Part shown: one piece after another, positions 1,749 to 18,830 of the stretch
Position numbering within the stretch: the stretch's first letter is position 1
Layout: each line of letters begins with the position of its first letter
Origin: a virus
Length of the DNA stretch: 21,668 nt
Direction: 5' to 3' (one strand)
Virus record (IMG/VR): IMGVR_UViG_3300009418_002269
Coordinates: 1 to 21,668 of that record
Translations under genes and position numbers: made by a program
The notes under the pieces: generated by a model
Told to the model about the DNA's origin: nothing
What the model saw: only the letters and a program-made list of their open reading frames with translations
Database searches by the model: none

Positions 1749-2150
1749 ATGAAACTAAAAAAAACAACAGAGGAGGAGGTTGTCGAGTCTTCTATTTTAA
1801 TGGGAAAGTTAGCAACACATAAAATTACCCAGGTTGACGCTGGTTGGAGAAAGTTTGATATTATCTTCCTAAAGGATCTTAGGGAAGAGGGAGAGAAATG
1901 CTGGGGTAAGATAGACTTTGATAAATGTGAACTCTTTTTAGAACATGATATGGATGATAGTATTGCTAGAGAAACTATTCTACATGAGATACTGCATATT
2001 GTTCTAAATTTAGTTGGATTTGATAAGGAACACACAGAGGGAGAAATTATTTCCACAAACGAGGAGATGGTTACTAGAATCACTAGAGGATTGATGGTTT
2101 TGATAAATTTAAACGAAAAGCTTTTCAAAATTTTGATGAACAAGGTATAA
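1749..2150 (+). CDS. Small HExxH zinc-metallopeptidase-like protein
   Basis: A 133-residue protein whose main recognisable feature is ETILHEILHIVLN, with the zinc-binding HEILH at residues 79-83 in a predicted helix. A second acidic helix downstream (STNEEMVTRITRGL) could provide the third ligand, a Glu, as in several small phage-encoded putative metallopeptidases. There is no signal peptide or membrane segment, so it is probably cytoplasmic. The ATG touches the helicase stop codon, which suggests co-translation with the helicase. Whether it cuts proteins, and which, cannot be told from the sequence; ImmA/IrrE-like or SprT-like relatives are alternatives that I cannot separate. Confidence 0.6.
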   Translation: MKLKKTTEEEVVESSILMGKLATHKITQVDAGWRKFDIIFLKDLREEGEKCWGKIDFDKCELFLEHDMDDSIARETILHEILHIVLNLVGFDKEHTEGEIISTNEEMVTRITRGLMVLINLNEKLFKILMNKV

Positions 2151-2151
2151 T
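2122..2151 (+). promoter_or_regulatory. Possible sigma70-like promoter before the UvsY-like gene
   Basis: A perfect TATAAT lies at 2146-2151, with TTTTCA at 2122-2127 (4 of 6 matches to the -35 consensus) and an 18-base spacer. The -10 box ends only 5 bases before the ATG at 2157, so a transcript starting from it would have almost no leader. The box contains the stop codon of the preceding gene, which partly explains the bases. Tentative, because TATAAT is frequent in this AT-rich DNA. Confidence 0.3.
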
Positions 2152-2156
2152 ACACT

Positions 2157-2603
2157 ATGAAAAAATCAGAACAACTGCTGGCTGCTTACGAGGATCTTAC
2201 CTGGGATAATTATATCATTATCGCAGATGCCTTGATGAAGTATGATAAGCATGAGATAGATAAAGAGCTTTCCCGTCAAGCTTCTATCTTTTCATACTAT
2301 AATGGTCTACTAGCATACGCAAAGATGGAAATGGAAGATGCCAACCTTGTACTAACAAAGGCTATGGCTCAAATCAGAAAAGAACAAAGACAACAGCCTG
2401 GAAAACAAACAGCGAAGGATCTAGACGATTTTGTATTCGCTCACCCAGACTATGCAACGAACAACAAGGCAGTTAACGATATTACTTTTAAGTATAATCT
2501 AATTAAAGGTCTTGTTCAGGCATTGGATCAGAAAGCATCTATGTTAGTTCAACTTAGTGCTAATTCCAGGGCCGAAACTAAACTATATAACTTACCAAAC
2601 TAA
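2157..2603 (+). CDS. UvsY-like recombination mediator (candidate)
   Basis: A 148-residue, mostly helical, charged protein with no cysteines, signal peptide or membrane segment. Its layout resembles that of T4-type UvsY, the mediator that loads UvsX on gp32-coated ssDNA. An N-terminal helix with a KYDKHEIDKELSRQAS stretch is followed by a helix of the form YYNGLLAYAKMEMEDANL, a charged linker, a short DDFVFAHPDYATNN segment, and a C-terminal helix. T4 UvsY is 137 residues. Genomic context supports the idea: the next gene is a gp32-like SSB and a UvsX/RecA gene lies in the same window. No catalytic motif exists to confirm it, so this is an architectural match only; a generic phage coiled-coil protein is the alternative. 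Confidence 0.4.
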   Translation: MKKSEQLLAAYEDLTWDNYIIIADALMKYDKHEIDKELSRQASIFSYYNGLLAYAKMEMEDANLVLTKAMAQIRKEQRQQPGKQTAKDLDDFVFAHPDYATNNKAVNDITFKYNLIKGLVQALDQKASMLVQLSANSRAETKLYNLPN

Positions 2604-2640
2604 TAACTTGGAAACTAATAACTAAAAAACGGAGAAATAG
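2597..2640 (+). promoter_or_regulatory. Tandem AT-rich repeat and leader before the SSB gene
   Basis: The 12-mer AAACTAATAACT occurs twice, at 2597-2608 and 2612-2623, separated by TGG. It is followed by an A-rich stretch and a GGAGA ribosome-binding site (2631-2635) 5 bases before the ATG at 2641. The leader has few G or C bases and no evident hairpin. T4 gene 32 represses its own translation by binding an unstructured AU-rich leader, and this leader could serve the same purpose; that role is inferred. Confidence 0.4.
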
Positions 2641-3381
2641 ATGGCTATTGATTTAAATGCCTTACGGCAAAAACACGCTGAACTTAGCAAGCAGGGTACT
2701 GGGGAAAACCAAAGTTTTCTCGAAAACTTTATTGCTCTAAAGGACGGCACTAATGTAATTCGTATTCTGCCTGGAAAGGATGATGCGGATTTTTATGCTG
2801 AAACCAAAATTCACAGGATTTCAGACAACGAAGGTAAGATTCGGAACTACCATTGTCGGAAAATACATGGAGAGGCTTGCCCTCTTTGTGATGCATATTT
2901 TGGTCTGTGGAAGACTGGTAATAAGTCTGATGAGGATACAGCAAGGCAGATTAAGCCCCGCGCTCGTTACTACATGAATGTTGTAGATCGTGAAAGTGGT
3001 GCTGTTAAAATTCTGTCTATCGGTGTAATCCTTTTCAAGAAGATTATTGGAGCCATGCTCGATGAAGACTTCGGTGATATTACCGATCTCGAAAACGGAC
3101 ATGATTTCAAGATCATTAAGACTATGGAAGGCCAATGGCCTCGTTATGATCAATCTCAGCCCCGTCCTAAGTCGGAGGCAGCAGGAAGTAATGCTGAGAT
3201 TGCTGGTTGGATGGATAGCCTCCATGAAATTCATAAGCTTGTAAAGTTAGAAGATTATGAAGATACTAAGAAGGTAGCAGAAGTGATCCTCCCTACTCAG
3301 TTTACTGAGAGGAGTTTAGAAGATAGAACTAGTTCTACTTCCAACGATGAGGACGACTACCTAACCAAATTGCAATCATGA
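2641..3381 (+). CDS. gp32-like single-stranded DNA-binding protein
   Basis: ssDNA-binding protein of the T4 gp32 type, which coats unwound DNA at forks and recombination intermediates. A likely zinc site is formed by His58, Cys72, Cys80 and Cys83 (ETKIHRI, then YHCRKIHGEACPLCD), matching the spacing class of T4 gp32 (His64, Cys77, Cys87, Cys90). The N-terminus is a short polar/basic segment such as gp32 uses for cooperativity. The C-terminus is acidic (SNDEDDYLTKLQS), like the partner-binding tail of SSBs. Length 246 against about 300 in T4. The GGAGA site 5 bases before the ATG is one of the best ribosome-binding sites in the window, fitting a protein needed in large amounts. Confidence 0.87.
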   Translation: MAIDLNALRQKHAELSKQGTGENQSFLENFIALKDGTNVIRILPGKDDADFYAETKIHRISDNEGKIRNYHCRKIHGEACPLCDAYFGLWKTGNKSDEDTARQIKPRARYYMNVVDRESGAVKILSIGVILFKKIIGAMLDEDFGDITDLENGHDFKIIKTMEGQWPRYDQSQPRPKSEAAGSNAEIAGWMDSLHEIHKLVKLEDYEDTKKVAEVILPTQFTERSLEDRTSSTSNDEDDYLTKLQS

Positions 3382-3385
3382 TACT

Positions 3386-3838
3386 ATGAATAAACTTAAA
3401 ACTTTCGGTATCTTCCTTATTGCAGCTATTGGCTTTTCTATTGCTGGATGTTCTACATTAGAAGCTATTGGGGATGGAATGGGTGATCTATTCGGTACTG
3501 GTGGAAACTATACCGTTGTTGACGCTACCAACCCTAATGCTACTGTAGGAGATCTTATGGCTTCTCCAACAAGCATTCCTAGTACGCTATGGAATGCTGT
3601 TTGGCGAGTTCTTATAGGGTTCGTCCCTGCTCTCGCTGGTTGGGAAGCCGTTCTTGCTCTGTTCTTCAGGCGCAAGCGCGAGCATTATGTAAGAGCCATC
3701 AAGGCTGCTGTTCCTTATGATGCTAATGTTGATATGAGCGGATTCCTTTCTGGAATTCTTGCGGCTTTAGGTGCCAATCATTCTTCAGAGACTACTAAGG
3801 AAACCTGGGAAGAAGAAGAATACGAAGAAGAAGCTTAA
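3386..3838 (+). CDS. Small predicted lipoprotein with an internal membrane segment
   Basis: The first 22 residues form a lipoprotein signal: MNKLK, a hydrophobic core (FGIFLIAAIGFS), then lipobox IAGC with the modified Cys at 22. A Gly/Asn-rich linker follows. A second hydrophobic stretch, about residues 68-94 (WNAVWRVLIGFVPALAGW onwards), is stopped by RRKRE, and the tail is acidic (EEEEYEEEA). This predicts a lipid anchor plus a transmembrane helix with about 45 residues between them. I do not recognise the family. A unimolecular spanin has both elements, but its membrane helix sits at the extreme C-terminus and its middle is longer; a holin-like or envelope-modifying protein is also possible. 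It starts 4 bases after the SSB stop and is the last gene before the terminator-like hairpin. Confidence 0.65.
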   Translation: MNKLKTFGIFLIAAIGFSIAGCSTLEAIGDGMGDLFGTGGNYTVVDATNPNATVGDLMASPTSIPSTLWNAVWRVLIGFVPALAGWEAVLALFFRRKREHYVRAIKAAVPYDANVDMSGFLSGILAALGANHSSETTKETWEEEEYEEEA

Positions 3839-3855
3839 AATTCTTCGTTCCCTTC

Positions 3856-3861
3856 TATAAT
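3856..3861 (+). promoter_or_regulatory. Consensus -10 box (TATAAT) between modules
   Basis: TATAAT lies in the non-coding gap between the lipoprotein gene and the first glycosyltransferase. The best -35 candidate at the right distance (CTTAAA, 3834-3839, 16-base spacer) matches only 3 of 6 positions. A start site about 7 bases downstream would fall within the following hairpin, so function is uncertain. Confidence 0.2.
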
Positions 3862-3863
3862 AC

Positions 3864-3897
3864 AGGGGGCAGGGTTTTTGCCTTGCCCTCTATTTTT
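3864..3897 (+). terminator. Rho-independent-type terminator after the lipoprotein gene
   Basis: The arm 3864-3873 (AGGGGGCAGG) pairs with 3881-3891 (CCTTGCCCTCT), giving about ten base pairs with one G-T wobble and one bulged T around a GTTTTTG loop. The arm is followed by A and five T (3893-3897). It begins 26 bases after the lipoprotein stop and separates the replication module from the carbohydrate island. Confidence 0.65.
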
Positions 3898-3909
3898 ATA
3901 CCTACTATT

Positions 3910-5082
3910 ATGAGTAAATTAAAACTTTTGATCTGTCCTGCAAATGAAGGGGGGTGTAGTTACTATCGTGCCATCGCACCTTATCAAAAACTCTCCATCT
4001 TGCATCCCGATAAGGTTGAAATTAGATTCAACAAAAATCCTTTAGGGATGGATGAGACGACAGGTAAATGGAAAGAGGATTGGACCTTTGATGATATGAA
4101 ATGGGCAGATGTTATAATGACCCAGAACATAGCCAATTGGGGTGGTCCCTATACTGCTAGAGTATGTGGAAAAGCTAAAGAGTTTGGAAAGTTTTTTCAT
4201 TATGATACGGATGATCTTCTTACCGATCTTTATGAGGGACATAGATTATCTCAGGTCTACAAAGATCGGGGATTAGGGGATATTACTAAATTCATTTATG
4301 CTAATGCTGATCTAGTAACAGTAACCCAGGCAAAGTTTGCTGAAAGAATTAAACCCTACATTGGAGGAGTATTAGCGGTTGTAAAAAATGCAATTGATTA
4401 TGATCTTCCCTGTTGGAATTTACCAAAAATTCCTCCTAGCAAAAAGAGAATAGTAAGGGTTGGTTGGGCAGGAGGGATTCATCATGAAGAAGATGTTAAA
4501 GAGTTTGCAGGGGTTCCTCACTTTGTTAATCAAAGAGTAGGACGAGAGAACATTCAATGGGATTTTTATGGTAAGCCTCCTATTGATCCTAATAGTTCTG
4601 AGAGGTGGCAACATGATGTCTGGGACAACTACCAAAATATTCTTTTACAGGGATTTAAAGGAGCTAAAAACTGGTCTATCTTTCCAGCCTTTCCTGCTGA
4701 TAAGTATGGATCTATCTTTGCTAATATGGATATTGCTATTGCCCCTCTTCAAATGAATGATTTTAATGACTCAAAATCGGAGATTAAAGTAGCAGAGTGT
4801 GGAAGATACAAGGTTCCTCTTATTGCTTCAGATGTTGGCTGTTATAGTGAAACTATTGTAAATGGACATACTGGATTTCTGCTCCCCCCTGACGCTCCTA
4901 AATCGGAATGGGTCAAAGTATTAACCAAAGTTGCCAAGGACCACAAACTCCGCAAGAGGATGGGCGAGAACCTCCACCAGATAACAGAAAAGTATTTTGA
5001 TTTGAACAAGGTTGTCCACCACAGGCTTGATCTATATGATGAGTGCTTCAAGTTAATTCCTTTAAATGAAGCCCAAGATTAA
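3910..5082 (+). CDS. GT-B fold glycosyltransferase, GT4-like (first of two)
   Basis: Predicted retaining glycosyltransferase that moves a sugar from a nucleotide donor to a glycan acceptor in the cytoplasm. The N-terminal half (KLLICPANEGGCSYYRAIAP onwards) resembles the acceptor domain. The C-terminal donor domain begins near VGWAGGIHHEED and carries the segment SKSEIKVAECGRYKVPLIAS, followed by a GHTGFLLPPD turn, typical of the GT4 nucleotide-binding region with its paired glutamates. Length 390 fits the family. I chose the ATG at 3910 because the alternative TTG at 3883 lies inside the terminator hairpin. No good ribosome-binding site is seen. The 3' end overlaps the next gene by 17 bases. 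Donor and acceptor are unknown. Confidence 0.83.
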   Translation: MSKLKLLICPANEGGCSYYRAIAPYQKLSILHPDKVEIRFNKNPLGMDETTGKWKEDWTFDDMKWADVIMTQNIANWGGPYTARVCGKAKEFGKFFHYDTDDLLTDLYEGHRLSQVYKDRGLGDITKFIYANADLVTVTQAKFAERIKPYIGGVLAVVKNAIDYDLPCWNLPKIPPSKKRIVRVGWAGGIHHEEDVKEFAGVPHFVNQRVGRENIQWDFYGKPPIDPNSSERWQHDVWDNYQNILLQGFKGAKNWSIFPAFPADKYGSIFANMDIAIAPLQMNDFNDSKSEIKVAECGRYKVPLIASDVGCYSETIVNGHTGFLLPPDAPKSEWVKVLTKVAKDHKLRKRMGENLHQITEKYFDLNKVVHHRLDLYDECFKLIPLNEAQD

Positions 5083-6411: not shown

Positions 6412-7124
6412 TTTCTTTTTGCCCAGGCTATTTTGGTTGGCTAGGAAACCAAATGTTTCAGTATGCTGCTACATTTGCAGCCAGCAAGAGGGCTGGAACT
6501 TCTTGCGCTTTTCCTGAGAATAACCCCAACTTATTTGAATTATTTACACTTTCGGCAAATAAAAGTAATAGCTTGCAAGGACAAAATATTTATCAGGAGC
6601 CGCATTTTCACTACTCCCCTATTCCTCAATCTGATGAAATTGTTCTTCATGGATACTTTCAATCAGAAAAATACTTCTCTGATTATATAGATGAATTAAA
6701 AGATGAGTTTGTCCTTTGTCACCCAAAGTACCCAGAAAAACTAGATGAAGATTATATAGGTATCCATGTTAGAAGAGGTGATTACTTGAATCATCCAACA
6801 ATACATCCAACTTGTTCTATGGAGTATTACGAACAAGCTTTAGCGTCCCTTCCTGACAAACCTGTAAAAGTATTTTCTGATGATCAAGAGTGGTGCGCTA
6901 AAAACTTTAAAGGTGATAAGTTCCATATATCGACTAAAGATTTCATAGAAGACTTTGAACTGATGAGGAAATGTAACTATCATATCATAGCAAACAGCAG
7001 CTTTAGTTGGTGGGCAGCATGGCTTTCTGATAGTAAAAAAGTTATAGCTCCGTCAACTTGGTTCGGGCCTGACGGAGCGGGATCTGCAAAGGATGTGGTT
7101 CCTAATAATTGGACTAAAATATGA
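6408..7124 (+). CDS. GT11-family alpha-1,2-fucosyltransferase
   Basis: Inverting fucosyltransferase using GDP-L-fucose. The diagnostic motifs are present: N-terminal GWLGNQMFQYAA (canonical G-x-LGNQ-x-FQ), HVRRGDY at residues 120-126, the donor-binding HxRRGDY motif of the family, and NSSFSWWAAWL at 196-206. Length 238 is a little below the usual 260-300. GT11 enzymes commonly make Fuc-alpha-1,2-Gal caps on O-antigens and Lewis/H-type structures. Its donor could be made by Gmd and Fcl at the end of the same island. It starts in an ATGA overlap with the GT25 gene and ends in another with the aminotransferase-fold gene. Confidence 0.92.
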   Translation: MISFCPGYFGWLGNQMFQYAATFAASKRAGTSCAFPENNPNLFELFTLSANKSNSLQGQNIYQEPHFHYSPIPQSDEIVLHGYFQSEKYFSDYIDELKDEFVLCHPKYPEKLDEDYIGIHVRRGDYLNHPTIHPTCSMEYYEQALASLPDKPVKVFSDDQEWCAKNFKGDKFHISTKDFIEDFELMRKCNYHIIANSSFSWWAAWLSDSKKVIAPSTWFGPDGAGSAKDVVPNNWTKI

Positions 7125-8305
7125 TTAAACTAGCCGAAGCAACTAATGATAAACATGATTTGGATGCTCTTTCTGAGTGGATTTCTGGATATCCTAGACT
7201 TACTCAAGGTGATCTTACAAAAAAGTACGAAGCTGAGTGGTCAGACTACTTGGGTATTAAAAACAGTATTTCTGTAAATTCAGGCTCTTCGGCAAATCTT
7301 TTAATGCTATACTCTTTAATAGAGGCTGGAGATTTAGAGCCTGGAGATTCTGTTATTGTTCCTGCACTTTCTTGGTCAACAGATCTTGCACCCATAATTC
7401 AATTAGGTTTACTTCCTATTTTATGTGATTGCAACATGACAGATTTTTCTTTAGATTTAGATCACCTAGAGAAGTTATTGGATGAGGGTGCCATTTTTGA
7501 AGAGCAGGAGATTAGGATTAGAAAGAGAGCTAAGGCAGTAATAATAGTTCCTGTTTTAGGGTTTGTCCCAGATATGGAGAGAGTATTATCTATATGCAAT
7601 AATCATAAGGTTATATTACTAGAGGATTGTTGTGAGTCATTAGGTTCGGAATTTAAAGGACAAAAGCTTGGAACTTTTGGCGTAATGTCTACTTTTTCTA
7701 CCTTTTTTGGTCATCACATTTCTACTATAGAAGGAGGAATGATTTGCACTAATGATTCAAAATATAATAAGATATTGAGATCAATTAGAGCGCATGGTTG
7801 GGGGAGAGACTGGACAGAGGAGCAACAAAAAGAAGAGCAATTAGAATGGGGAGTTTCTGAGTTTGATGCCTCGTTTACTTTCTATACCGTAGGTTTTAAT
7901 TGTAGAAGCACAGATCTTCAAGCCTTTTTGGGTCTTCGTCAACTAAAAAAGTTGCCTAAAATTGTAGAGAAGAGGAATGAGAACTACAAGAAATATCTAC
8001 ACCTTTTGGGTATGTCTGATAATTTAGAAGGGTTATATGTTTCTAATTTTGCTTTCCCAATTATTTCAACTCAGAGGGAAAAAGTAATTAAAGAGTTGAC
8101 TGAGAATGAGGTAGAATGTAGACCACTAATTTGTGGATCACTAGGAGAACAGCCTATGTATGTGAAGCGATATGGTAAGCTAATGCTTCCAAACGCATCA
8201 TTTATTAAAAAACATGGAATGTATGTCCCAAACCACCACCTGCTTAGTGATGAAGATATACGGAAAATAGCTGAGATTATTATAAATGCCAAAAGTACAG
8301 ATTAA
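7121..8305 (+). CDS. ColD-like NDP-4-keto-6-deoxyhexose 3-dehydratase (DegT fold, Lys to His)
   Basis: A 394-residue PLP-fold protein of the DegT/DnrJ/EryC1 group: SVNSGSSANLLML at the cofactor phosphate region, VILLEDCCESLGS with the Asp expected to contact the pyridine nitrogen, and VGFNCRSTDLQAFLGLRQL near the small domain. At the position of the Schiff-base lysine (six residues before EGG) it has His198, in STFFGHHISTIEGGM. In known enzymes this Lys-to-His change marks ColD (GDP-4-keto-6-deoxymannose 3-dehydratase) and the CDP-sugar enzyme E1/RfbH, which remove the 3-hydroxyl using PMP. Because Gmd in the same island makes the ColD substrate, a GDP-linked 3,6-dideoxy sugar such as a colitose precursor is the natural inference. 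It overlaps the GT10 gene by 20 bases. Confidence 0.8.
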   Translation: MIKLAEATNDKHDLDALSEWISGYPRLTQGDLTKKYEAEWSDYLGIKNSISVNSGSSANLLMLYSLIEAGDLEPGDSVIVPALSWSTDLAPIIQLGLLPILCDCNMTDFSLDLDHLEKLLDEGAIFEEQEIRIRKRAKAVIIVPVLGFVPDMERVLSICNNHKVILLEDCCESLGSEFKGQKLGTFGVMSTFSTFFGHHISTIEGGMICTNDSKYNKILRSIRAHGWGRDWTEEQQKEEQLEWGVSEFDASFTFYTVGFNCRSTDLQAFLGLRQLKKLPKIVEKRNENYKKYLHLLGMSDNLEGLYVSNFAFPIISTQREKVIKELTENEVECRPLICGSLGEQPMYVKRYGKLMLPNASFIKKHGMYVPNHHLLSDEDIRKIAEIIINAKSTD

Positions 8306-17834: not shown

Positions 17835-18830
17835 ATGAATTTAGAGTATATTTGGATTGATGGTAGAGAGGGTACTCCTCAACTAAGGAGTAAAACAAAG
17901 GTTGTGTATTCAGAAGAATCTATTCCTGACTGGGGTTTCGATGGAGGCTCTACTTATCAAGGAACTCTTCAAGACTCTGATAGAATTTTAAAATCCGTGA
18001 GAGTTTATGCTGATCCATTTGGAGCGCATACTGATAAGCTTGTTCTTTGTGAGGTTTATTATCCTGATGGAACTCCGCACGAAAGTAATACTAGACATAG
18101 CCTGTCTAAAAAAGATGTAAAAGAGTTGGATCCTTGGTTCGGATTTGAACAAGAGTATACTTTAATTAACCCTGACACAAGAAAACCAATAGGGTTTAAA
18201 GATAAAGATCCTAATACTCTTATGCAGGGAGATTTTTATTGTAGCATTGGAACCTCAAAAGCAATTGGTAGGGAGATAGCAGAAGCACACCTAGGGTATT
18301 GTAGGCTTGCTGGAGTCGCTTTGGATGGTATGAATGCAGAGGTTATGCCTGGACAATGGGAATACCAGACTTCTCCTGAAGGCTATCTGAAAGCCCCTGA
18401 CGATGCTTGGATGGCAAGGTATATCCTAGAGCGATTATCTGAAAGGTATGGTGTTGATATATCTTTTAATCCAAAACCGCATGAGGCTTTCAATGGGGCT
18501 GGAATGCATACTAACTTTTCTACAGTAAAGACTAGAGAAGATTATAGTTATTGTATAGAAGTAATTGAGAGTCTGAAAGAGAATCATTCCGAAGCTATTA
18601 AAATTTACGGTGATGGGATTGAACGAAGGCTAACGGGAGAATGTGAAACTAGTCCCTTTACTGAGTTTTCTTTTGGGGTTGCCGATAGAGGTGCTTCCGT
18701 TAGGGTTCCTGCTCATGTGTATGCTGCGGGAAAAGGATATATTGAGGATCGTCGTCCTTGTGCTAATGCTGATCCTTACAAAGTTTGTTCACATATTCTT
18801 GAGTGTGTTGCTACTCCTGTTCTATCATAA
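17835..18830 (+). CDS. glnII: Glutamine synthetase, type II (eukaryote-like)
   Basis: Joins ammonia to glutamate using ATP. The sequence follows the GSII pattern, not the long bacterial GSI: YIWIDG, WGFDGGSTYQ (33-42), SVRVYADPF, LVLCEVYYPDGTPHESNTR (GSI lacks this block), PWFGFEQEYTL with metal ligands Glu105 and Glu107, GMNAEVMPGQWEYQ with Glu169, FNGAGMHTNFST (219-230) with His225, ERRLTGECET, and KGYIEDRRPCANADPY with Glu305. All main metal and substrate residues appear intact. The length of 331 matches the GSII minimum and is shorter than the ~450-residue GSI. It lies between dUTPase and recombinase genes, with gaps of 3 bases on both sides, so it is part of the core phage operon rather than a cellular fragment. 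Confidence 0.92.
   Translation: MNLEYIWIDGREGTPQLRSKTKVVYSEESIPDWGFDGGSTYQGTLQDSDRILKSVRVYADPFGAHTDKLVLCEVYYPDGTPHESNTRHSLSKKDVKELDPWFGFEQEYTLINPDTRKPIGFKDKDPNTLMQGDFYCSIGTSKAIGREIAEAHLGYCRLAGVALDGMNAEVMPGQWEYQTSPEGYLKAPDDAWMARYILERLSERYGVDISFNPKPHEAFNGAGMHTNFSTVKTREDYSYCIEVIESLKENHSEAIKIYGDGIERRLTGECETSPFTEFSFGVADRGASVRVPAHVYAAGKGYIEDRRPCANADPYKVCSHILECVATPVLS

Follow-up and report, generated by a model that had tools for sequence, protein, structure and literature searches.

The closest described systems are the gene 32 operators of phage T4 and its relatives. According to the accessible portions of PMC535899 and PMC3014915, the T4 single-strand DNA-binding protein (SSB), gp32, nucleates on a pseudoknot, spreads over the unstructured leader and represses its own mRNA, and the former describes the UUAAA/UAAA repeats of this leader as essential for repression. 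The T4 gp32 monomer covers 7 nt, as given in the available sections of PMC7826291 and PMC10484735, and the same section of PMC7826291 treats its site as independent of ssDNA sequence. The way in which such a non-specific protein picks out its own message is an old question, called unclear for T4 in the accessible text of PMC535899, which also leaves the autoregulation of phage RB49 open, and a study of diverse T4 relatives is asked for in that of PMC3014915. Among open-access titles and abstract openings we found no description of word arrays in other gp32 leaders; the T4 and RB69 papers were among those listed.

Here we describe a leader of this family in a viral DNA stretch of 21,668 nucleotides (the window), the relevant features of which are as follows.

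2157 to 2603, plus strand: upstream ORF of 148 aa, PHROG 2058 (unknown function), whose 3' end bears part of the word array
2574 to 2640, plus strand: proposed SSB operator, a G-poor leader running into the ribosome-binding site, proposed from word enrichment and low structure
2580 to 2592, plus strand: degenerate third copy of the repeat, AAACTATATAACT, inside the upstream ORF near its end, encoding KLYN
2597 to 2608, plus strand: repeat copy 1, AAACTAATAACT, within which the upstream ORF terminates (stop codon 2601-2603)
2612 to 2623, plus strand: repeat copy 2, AAACTAATAACT, an exact 12-nt match to copy 1
2631 to 2634, plus strand: Shine-Dalgarno GGAG, 6 nt 5' of the ATG at 2641
2641 to 3381, plus strand: gp32-family single-strand DNA-binding protein of 246 aa, assigned by Pfam, PHROG, PDB and predicted fold

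The preliminary description of this DNA had called the downstream gene gp32-like, and the searches agree: its product belongs to the gp32 family by Pfam PF08804 (E 6.5e-19, over the cut-off), and it matches PHROG 1192 (E 3.1e-37) and the T4 gp32 entry 8gme in the PDB (E 4.1e-11). The AlphaFold model has a mean pLDDT of 80.4, and all six Foldseek matches of the model at E ≤ 0.001 are RB69/T4 gp32 chains (best E 7.3e-11). A tblastn search of the named phage collection at E 1e-5 left the ORF upstream of it without a match. In most of 42 aligned relatives (154 loci, 126 of them with an upstream frame, reduced to 42 by removing near-identical ones), a frame ending in a similar ETKLY(N/K) lies 5' of the SSB gene. 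In the tail of the window's ORF, synonymous conservation is 0.71 for Thr against a mean of 0.46 for fourfold codons, and 1.0 for Lys and one Glu against 0.62 for twofold codons, while Arg, Leu, Tyr and the second Glu are near average; the tail codons appear partly more conserved at synonymous sites, a pattern that is suggestive only of an overlap between the array and the coding sequence.

The two exact repeat copies reported before the gp32-like start were both recovered (2597-2608 and 2612-2623, with TGG as the spacer) and were joined by the degenerate copy at 2580-2592, the whole forming an array of 2.8 copies at 2580-2623 in Tandem Repeats Finder. The noncoding leader of the SSB gene is 37 nt long, and the ACT words of the proposed operator start at 2577, 2582, 2590, 2599, 2606, 2614 and 2621, with spacings of 5, 8, 9, 7, 8 and 7. 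The leader is predicted to be weakly folded, with -4.2 kcal/mol over 91 nt (z 0.37), -4.2 kcal/mol over 70 nt (z -0.49) and -1.5 kcal/mol over -50 to -1, and the segment overlapping the ribosome-binding site is predicted to be unstructured, as a T4-type operator requires. The earlier view of a leader without hairpins fits this weak predicted structure and needs one amendment, a single 4-bp helix (CCAA/UUGG) 5' of the Shine-Dalgarno in the predicted fold. An H-type scan that finds the T4 pseudoknot (-19.2 stacking) gave no pseudoknot in the window between -80 and -30. A weaker candidate at 2543-2581 (-14.8, reached by 0 of 100 shuffles), inside the upstream ORF, was rejected as a conserved element: among 32 distinct relative segments, 11 of 11 pairs are retained in L001 alone, which is identical, and no more than 7 in any of the other 31. 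An Rfam search of positions 2000-4000 up to E 1 gave no accepted match near the leader, and its lone match, RF01730 at 3861-3924, is under the gathering score. A terminator-like hairpin with 12 pairs and a T-rich tail lies at 3864-3891, 3' of ORF 3386-3838. Elsewhere in the window, a 15-nt tandem repeat (2 copies, 93%) occupies 7320-7349 within ORF 7121-8305, and a glutamine synthetase-like ORF (17835-18830) adjoins dUTPase and UvsX genes.

Dinucleotide shuffling of the 70-nt leader gave an exact 12-mer repeat within 30 nt in 44 of 5000 trials, and shuffling of the whole window gave one at any position in 9 of 100. Taken alone, the window repeat is modestly beyond chance, and its weight comes from the comparison with relatives. 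The same leader is present in two contigs of the window's own population (L001 and L002), and the exact repeat is absent from the leaders read in relatives with 57-70% identical SSBs; noncoding leaders in relatives are 10 nt long in some (L019 and others) and 37-47 nt in many. As a conserved motif the exact repeat was rejected after a pattern scan of IMG/VR, which returned seven stretches, two of them from the window's own population, and in the other five (L012-L015 and L018) no SSB reading frame was found at E 1e-3. The preliminary description had counted against its own reading a repeat unconserved among relatives together with an SSB indifferent to the leader RNA. The first half of this is what we observed for the exact 12-mer, which stands beside an SSB gene only within the same population, and the words inside it are enriched in relatives.

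This enrichment was measured in the 45 nt 5' of the SSB start for 43 clusters (<90% identity) from 190 loci, which remained of 212 SSB-match loci once those with a match starting after profile position 8 or a start <60 nt from the locus end were dropped, and was compared with 520 leaders of other genes at the same loci. For the control leaders of this test, as well as of the register and whole-record tests below, gene starts came from our own simple caller. Per 45 nt, SSB leaders against other leaders contain 3.42 against 0.72 ACT, 2.12 against 0.25 AACT, 0.93 against 0.04 TAACT and 1.23 against 0.07 ACTAA, counts reached by 0 of 5000 locus-matched draws for each word. The 20 distant clusters alone still give 1.30 against 0.17 for AACT (0 of 5000), and G is scarcer in SSB leaders (6.28 against 10.09).

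Different words are repeated in several of the leaders that we read in 17 named phages: CGACA in Pseudomonas phage nickie, AATAC in P-SSM4 and S-SSM7, and ATACTATA and AATACAA in Vibrio ValKK3. Across lineages the words vary (AACT, AATAC, AAATCC, TCGACA, ATACCAGC) and the register stays at ~8-10 nt. For a word-agnostic measure of this register, exact 5-mer repeats were counted by lag in the leaders of 426 SSB loci (from 456, the rest dropped by limits of profile position 12 or 90 nt from the locus end), placed in five alignment groups (A1-A5) and clustered at 70% to 93, with 909 other leaders (400 sampled for the lag profile) and all 526 mostly noncoding ones as controls. The top words are AACT/ACTA/CTAA in A1, AACT/TAAC in A2, ATAC/AATA in A3, ACAA/AACA in A5 and, in the four clusters of A4, ATAC/TAAA, where ATAC comes from one cluster.

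At lags 8, 9 and 10, the SSB leaders have 0.55, 0.59 and 0.90 repeats per leader, against 0.15-0.17 in dinucleotide shuffles (3.5 to 6 times), and the controls have 0.06-0.14 at these lags and exceed their own shuffles mainly at lag 6. The SSB leaders are near their shuffles at lags 6, 7, 12 and 14, are raised ~1.8-fold at lags 5 and 11 and 2.6-fold at lag 13, and show second peaks at lags 16-20; with lags 11 and 13 raised too, the register is loose. Summed over lags 7-12, they reach 2.68 against 0.70 over all 909 controls (0 of 5000 draws), and all five groups are above their own controls (at most 7 of 5000 draws). Clustering removes relatedness inside the groups only in part, and with one leader per 60%, 50% or 40% cluster (57, 33 and 18 leaders) the sum over lags 7-11 is 2.26, 2.09 and 2.78 against 0.63-0.67, with 0 of 5000 draws reaching the SSB sum at each level. 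Individually, 26 of 93 SSB leaders have p<0.05, against 16 of 500 controls, and 32 of the 93 score zero on the lag 7-11 test, many being without a clear array. SSB leaders well outside the window's clade are likewise marked by repeats in this 8-10 nt register.

These comparisons bear on a rival account, neutral tandem duplication, in which slippage in the window lineage duplicated the upstream gene's 3' end (AAACTATATAACT) to no functional effect. This would agree with a degenerate copy that is coding and conserved, with a 12-mer that the relatives read do not share, the leader being as short as 10 nt in some of them, and with a repeat that by itself exceeds chance only modestly (44 of 5000). 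It leaves unexplained why the density of AACT in SSB leaders is ~8 times that in the leaders of other genes at these loci, and why registered arrays of different words stand at the same gene in other groups. As an account of the whole pattern we consider it unlikely, and slippage may be the origin of the window's two copies. The idea that the repeat region is an SSB-specific leader element gains from the same observations, namely the word enrichment in relatives and the 8-10 nt register of SSB leaders beyond the window's clade.

The register is also specific in location. The 713 segments from within SSB genes, the 89 following their stops and the 93 at -200 to -131 show no 8-10 peak, and the gene-interior and -200 to -131 segments show multiples of three only, as in coding sequence. 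Repeated words take up 29-37% of the SSB leaders in the bins spanning -30 to -11, against 7-8% of controls. In 74 of 93 cases, the predicted fold of the SSB leader is weaker than the mean for up to four noncoding control leaders sampled at the same loci. The G-poor, A-rich and weakly folded character of SSB leaders would also suit an unstructured A-rich enhancer of a generic sort, on which ribosomal protein S1 or an RNA chaperone lands to boost the output of an abundant protein, with no feedback involved. The major-capsid-type genes (PF07068), taken here to encode abundant proteins, provide a comparison. Their leaders (29 loci, 3 without a usable start and 7 repeats removed, leaving 19; both strands used and frame lengths checked) have a mean lag 7-11 score of 0.58, with one at 5, which is no more register than other genes have, whereas SSB leaders score 2.1-2.8. 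High expression alone is therefore disfavoured, and the dinucleotide shuffles remove composition alone, so that this enhancer is, in our estimate, rather improbable and less probable than slippage.

The pattern is not uniform among individual phages, the window included. The window leader scores 2 on the lag 7-11 test, a value reached by 2961 of 5000 shuffles, and strict periodicity of 5-mers at these lags was rejected for the window as not significant. None of the eight leaders of its group A1 is individually significant, the signal of this group being word density plus lags 8 and 15, and the window's case rests on word density and on membership in the pattern. ACT spacings that are all 7-9 arise in 34 of 200000 random placements, a post hoc figure that disregards the first ACT (2577, spacing 5) and includes spacings which the duplication itself copied. 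In eight whole or large records, the SSB leader tops all other leaders in five, namely G001 (69 others), G023 (61), G011 (127), nickie (157) and G047 (141); it is reached by one or two in two more (1 of 223 in P-SSM4, 2 of 128 in part of ValKK3). It fails in one, G009 (L133), which has no register: its score is reached by 84 of 84 and its AACT count by just 1 of 84. Six named phages with annotated gene starts were held out. Campylobacter F341 scores 11 (0 of 9 controls reach this), Sinorhizobium phiM7 scores 3 (2 of 23) and Citrobacter CfP1 scores 1 (4 of 17); the other three, Acinetobacter KARL-1, Dickeya Ds9CZ and Vibrio K440, score 0, and universality of the array was rejected. The mean of the six is 2.50 against 0.70 (402 of 20000 matched draws).

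Some SSB leaders are built differently. Eight cyanophage-like leaders (L317, L322, L323, L324, L336, L349, L358 and L371) have one or two mini-hairpins of the GGGAGTTCCC type 5' of the Shine-Dalgarno and no word array, and an Rfam search of four of these loci (L322, L349, L358 and L371) returned tRNAs only. In L406, the last 75 nt before the SSB start contain a long direct repeat with predicted strong hairpins.

A third account, which we hold to be very improbable, makes the array an operator for another phage repressor, for example RegA, selecting UAA triplets. RegA acts on many mRNAs, which fits poorly with arrays specific to SSB leaders. The available part of PMC3014915 likewise has RegA acting on many mRNAs, and a title in its reference list links selection with RB69 RegA to UAA triplets. 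UAA does occur within the window words, and RegA (PF01818) is present in 8 of 22 searched records, including the array-bearing P-SSM4 and ValKK3. It was not found in the array-bearing Pseudomonas phage nickie (complete, 112 kb) or in G001, G011, G023 and G047 (records that may be fragments), which argues against this account, and the search also gave no match in the window's record, G002 and G009, which, like G001 and G023, are possibly incomplete. Least credible of all is an array at the DNA level, a promoter or transcription-factor element. Of the 93 leaders, 39 have a sigma-70-like pattern (TTGAH-N17-20-TANNNT) within their final 140 nt, and 32 of these belong to the cyanophage-like A3 (a count without chance control). 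In 31 of the 39, however, the end of the -10 box falls at -41 to -67, which would place most of the array within the transcript and over the ribosome-binding site, and this position together with a register (8-10, second peak 16-20) off the 10.5-bp helical repeat disfavours it.

The reading of the sequence comparisons that we favour, as the probable one, is autogenous translational control of the SSB gene by a pseudoknot-free operator built as a lattice of repeated words. In this operator, short, weakly preferred, G-poor words (AACU/ACUAA) would stand 5-9 nt apart, mostly 7-9, from ~-64 to the Shine-Dalgarno. SSB in excess of the available ssDNA would fill successive words side by side, monomer by monomer, and polymerise into the ribosome-binding site, which would block initiation, and replication or damage would pull SSB back to ssDNA and lift the block. 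In other lineages different words would serve, set at a comparable pitch of 8-10 nt. Three steps here are inferred: SSB as the ligand, monomer packing as the source of the register, and repression of translation as the consequence of binding. The preliminary suggestion that the repeat could raise cooperativity draws support from the word enrichment and from the 8-10 nt register of repeats beyond the window's clade. Words placed every 7-10 nt over the ribosome-binding site would be the expected look of a T4-type operator that needs no nucleation site, its numerous weak sites kept in step so that monomers can pack cooperatively.

More tentatively, and with rather less confidence than for the window's own operator, gp32-type SSBs may in general carry weak, lineage-specific RNA word preferences, and their leaders may be registered lattices with one word per monomer, in which the sequence turns over while the 8-10 nt pitch is kept; arrays, pseudoknots and mini-hairpins might then be interchangeable builds of the same feedback switch. 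A registered, lineage-specific array is a candidate answer, readable from sequence, to how the protein finds its own mRNA, and it predicts the word for each phage. If true, the spacing of protein footprints could be read from genomes.

Compared with the T4 gene 32 operator as described in the accessible portions of PMC535899 and PMC3014915, the window shares a gp32-family SSB gene and an unstructured leader with short repeated words over the ribosome-binding site. The likeness to T4 put forward in the preliminary description holds for this unstructured, repeat-bearing part and stops at the pseudoknot, which in T4 lies near -67 and has no conserved counterpart found in the window or its relatives. 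The words differ as well: those of T4 are UUAAA every 5 nt (T4 lag 5, computed here), whereas those of the window are AACU/ACUAA mostly every 7-9 nt. UUAA is absent from the window's 70-nt leader and UAAA is found there only within ACUAAA; the T4-type UUAAA/UAAA elements are missing and AACU/ACUAA words stand in their place. The 8-10 nt register is longer than, though close to, the 7-nt site of T4 gp32. The RB49 gene 32 leader is reported to be without a pseudoknot, like that of the window, in the available text of both papers, of which PMC535899 has UUAA/UUAAA units kept and PMC3014915 has no A+U-rich sequence conserved. For RB69, the accessible sections of PMC535899 show A(-1) to A(-45) to be unstructured, a likeness to the window, and, unlike the window, describe a pseudoknot backed by RNase V1 and chemical probing. 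According to the same sections, the RB69 leader has diverged in sequence and is still repressible by both gp32 proteins, which provides a precedent for sequence turnover with kept function. The leader described here may thus be regarded as a variant of the known gp32 autogenous operator, with a putative function.
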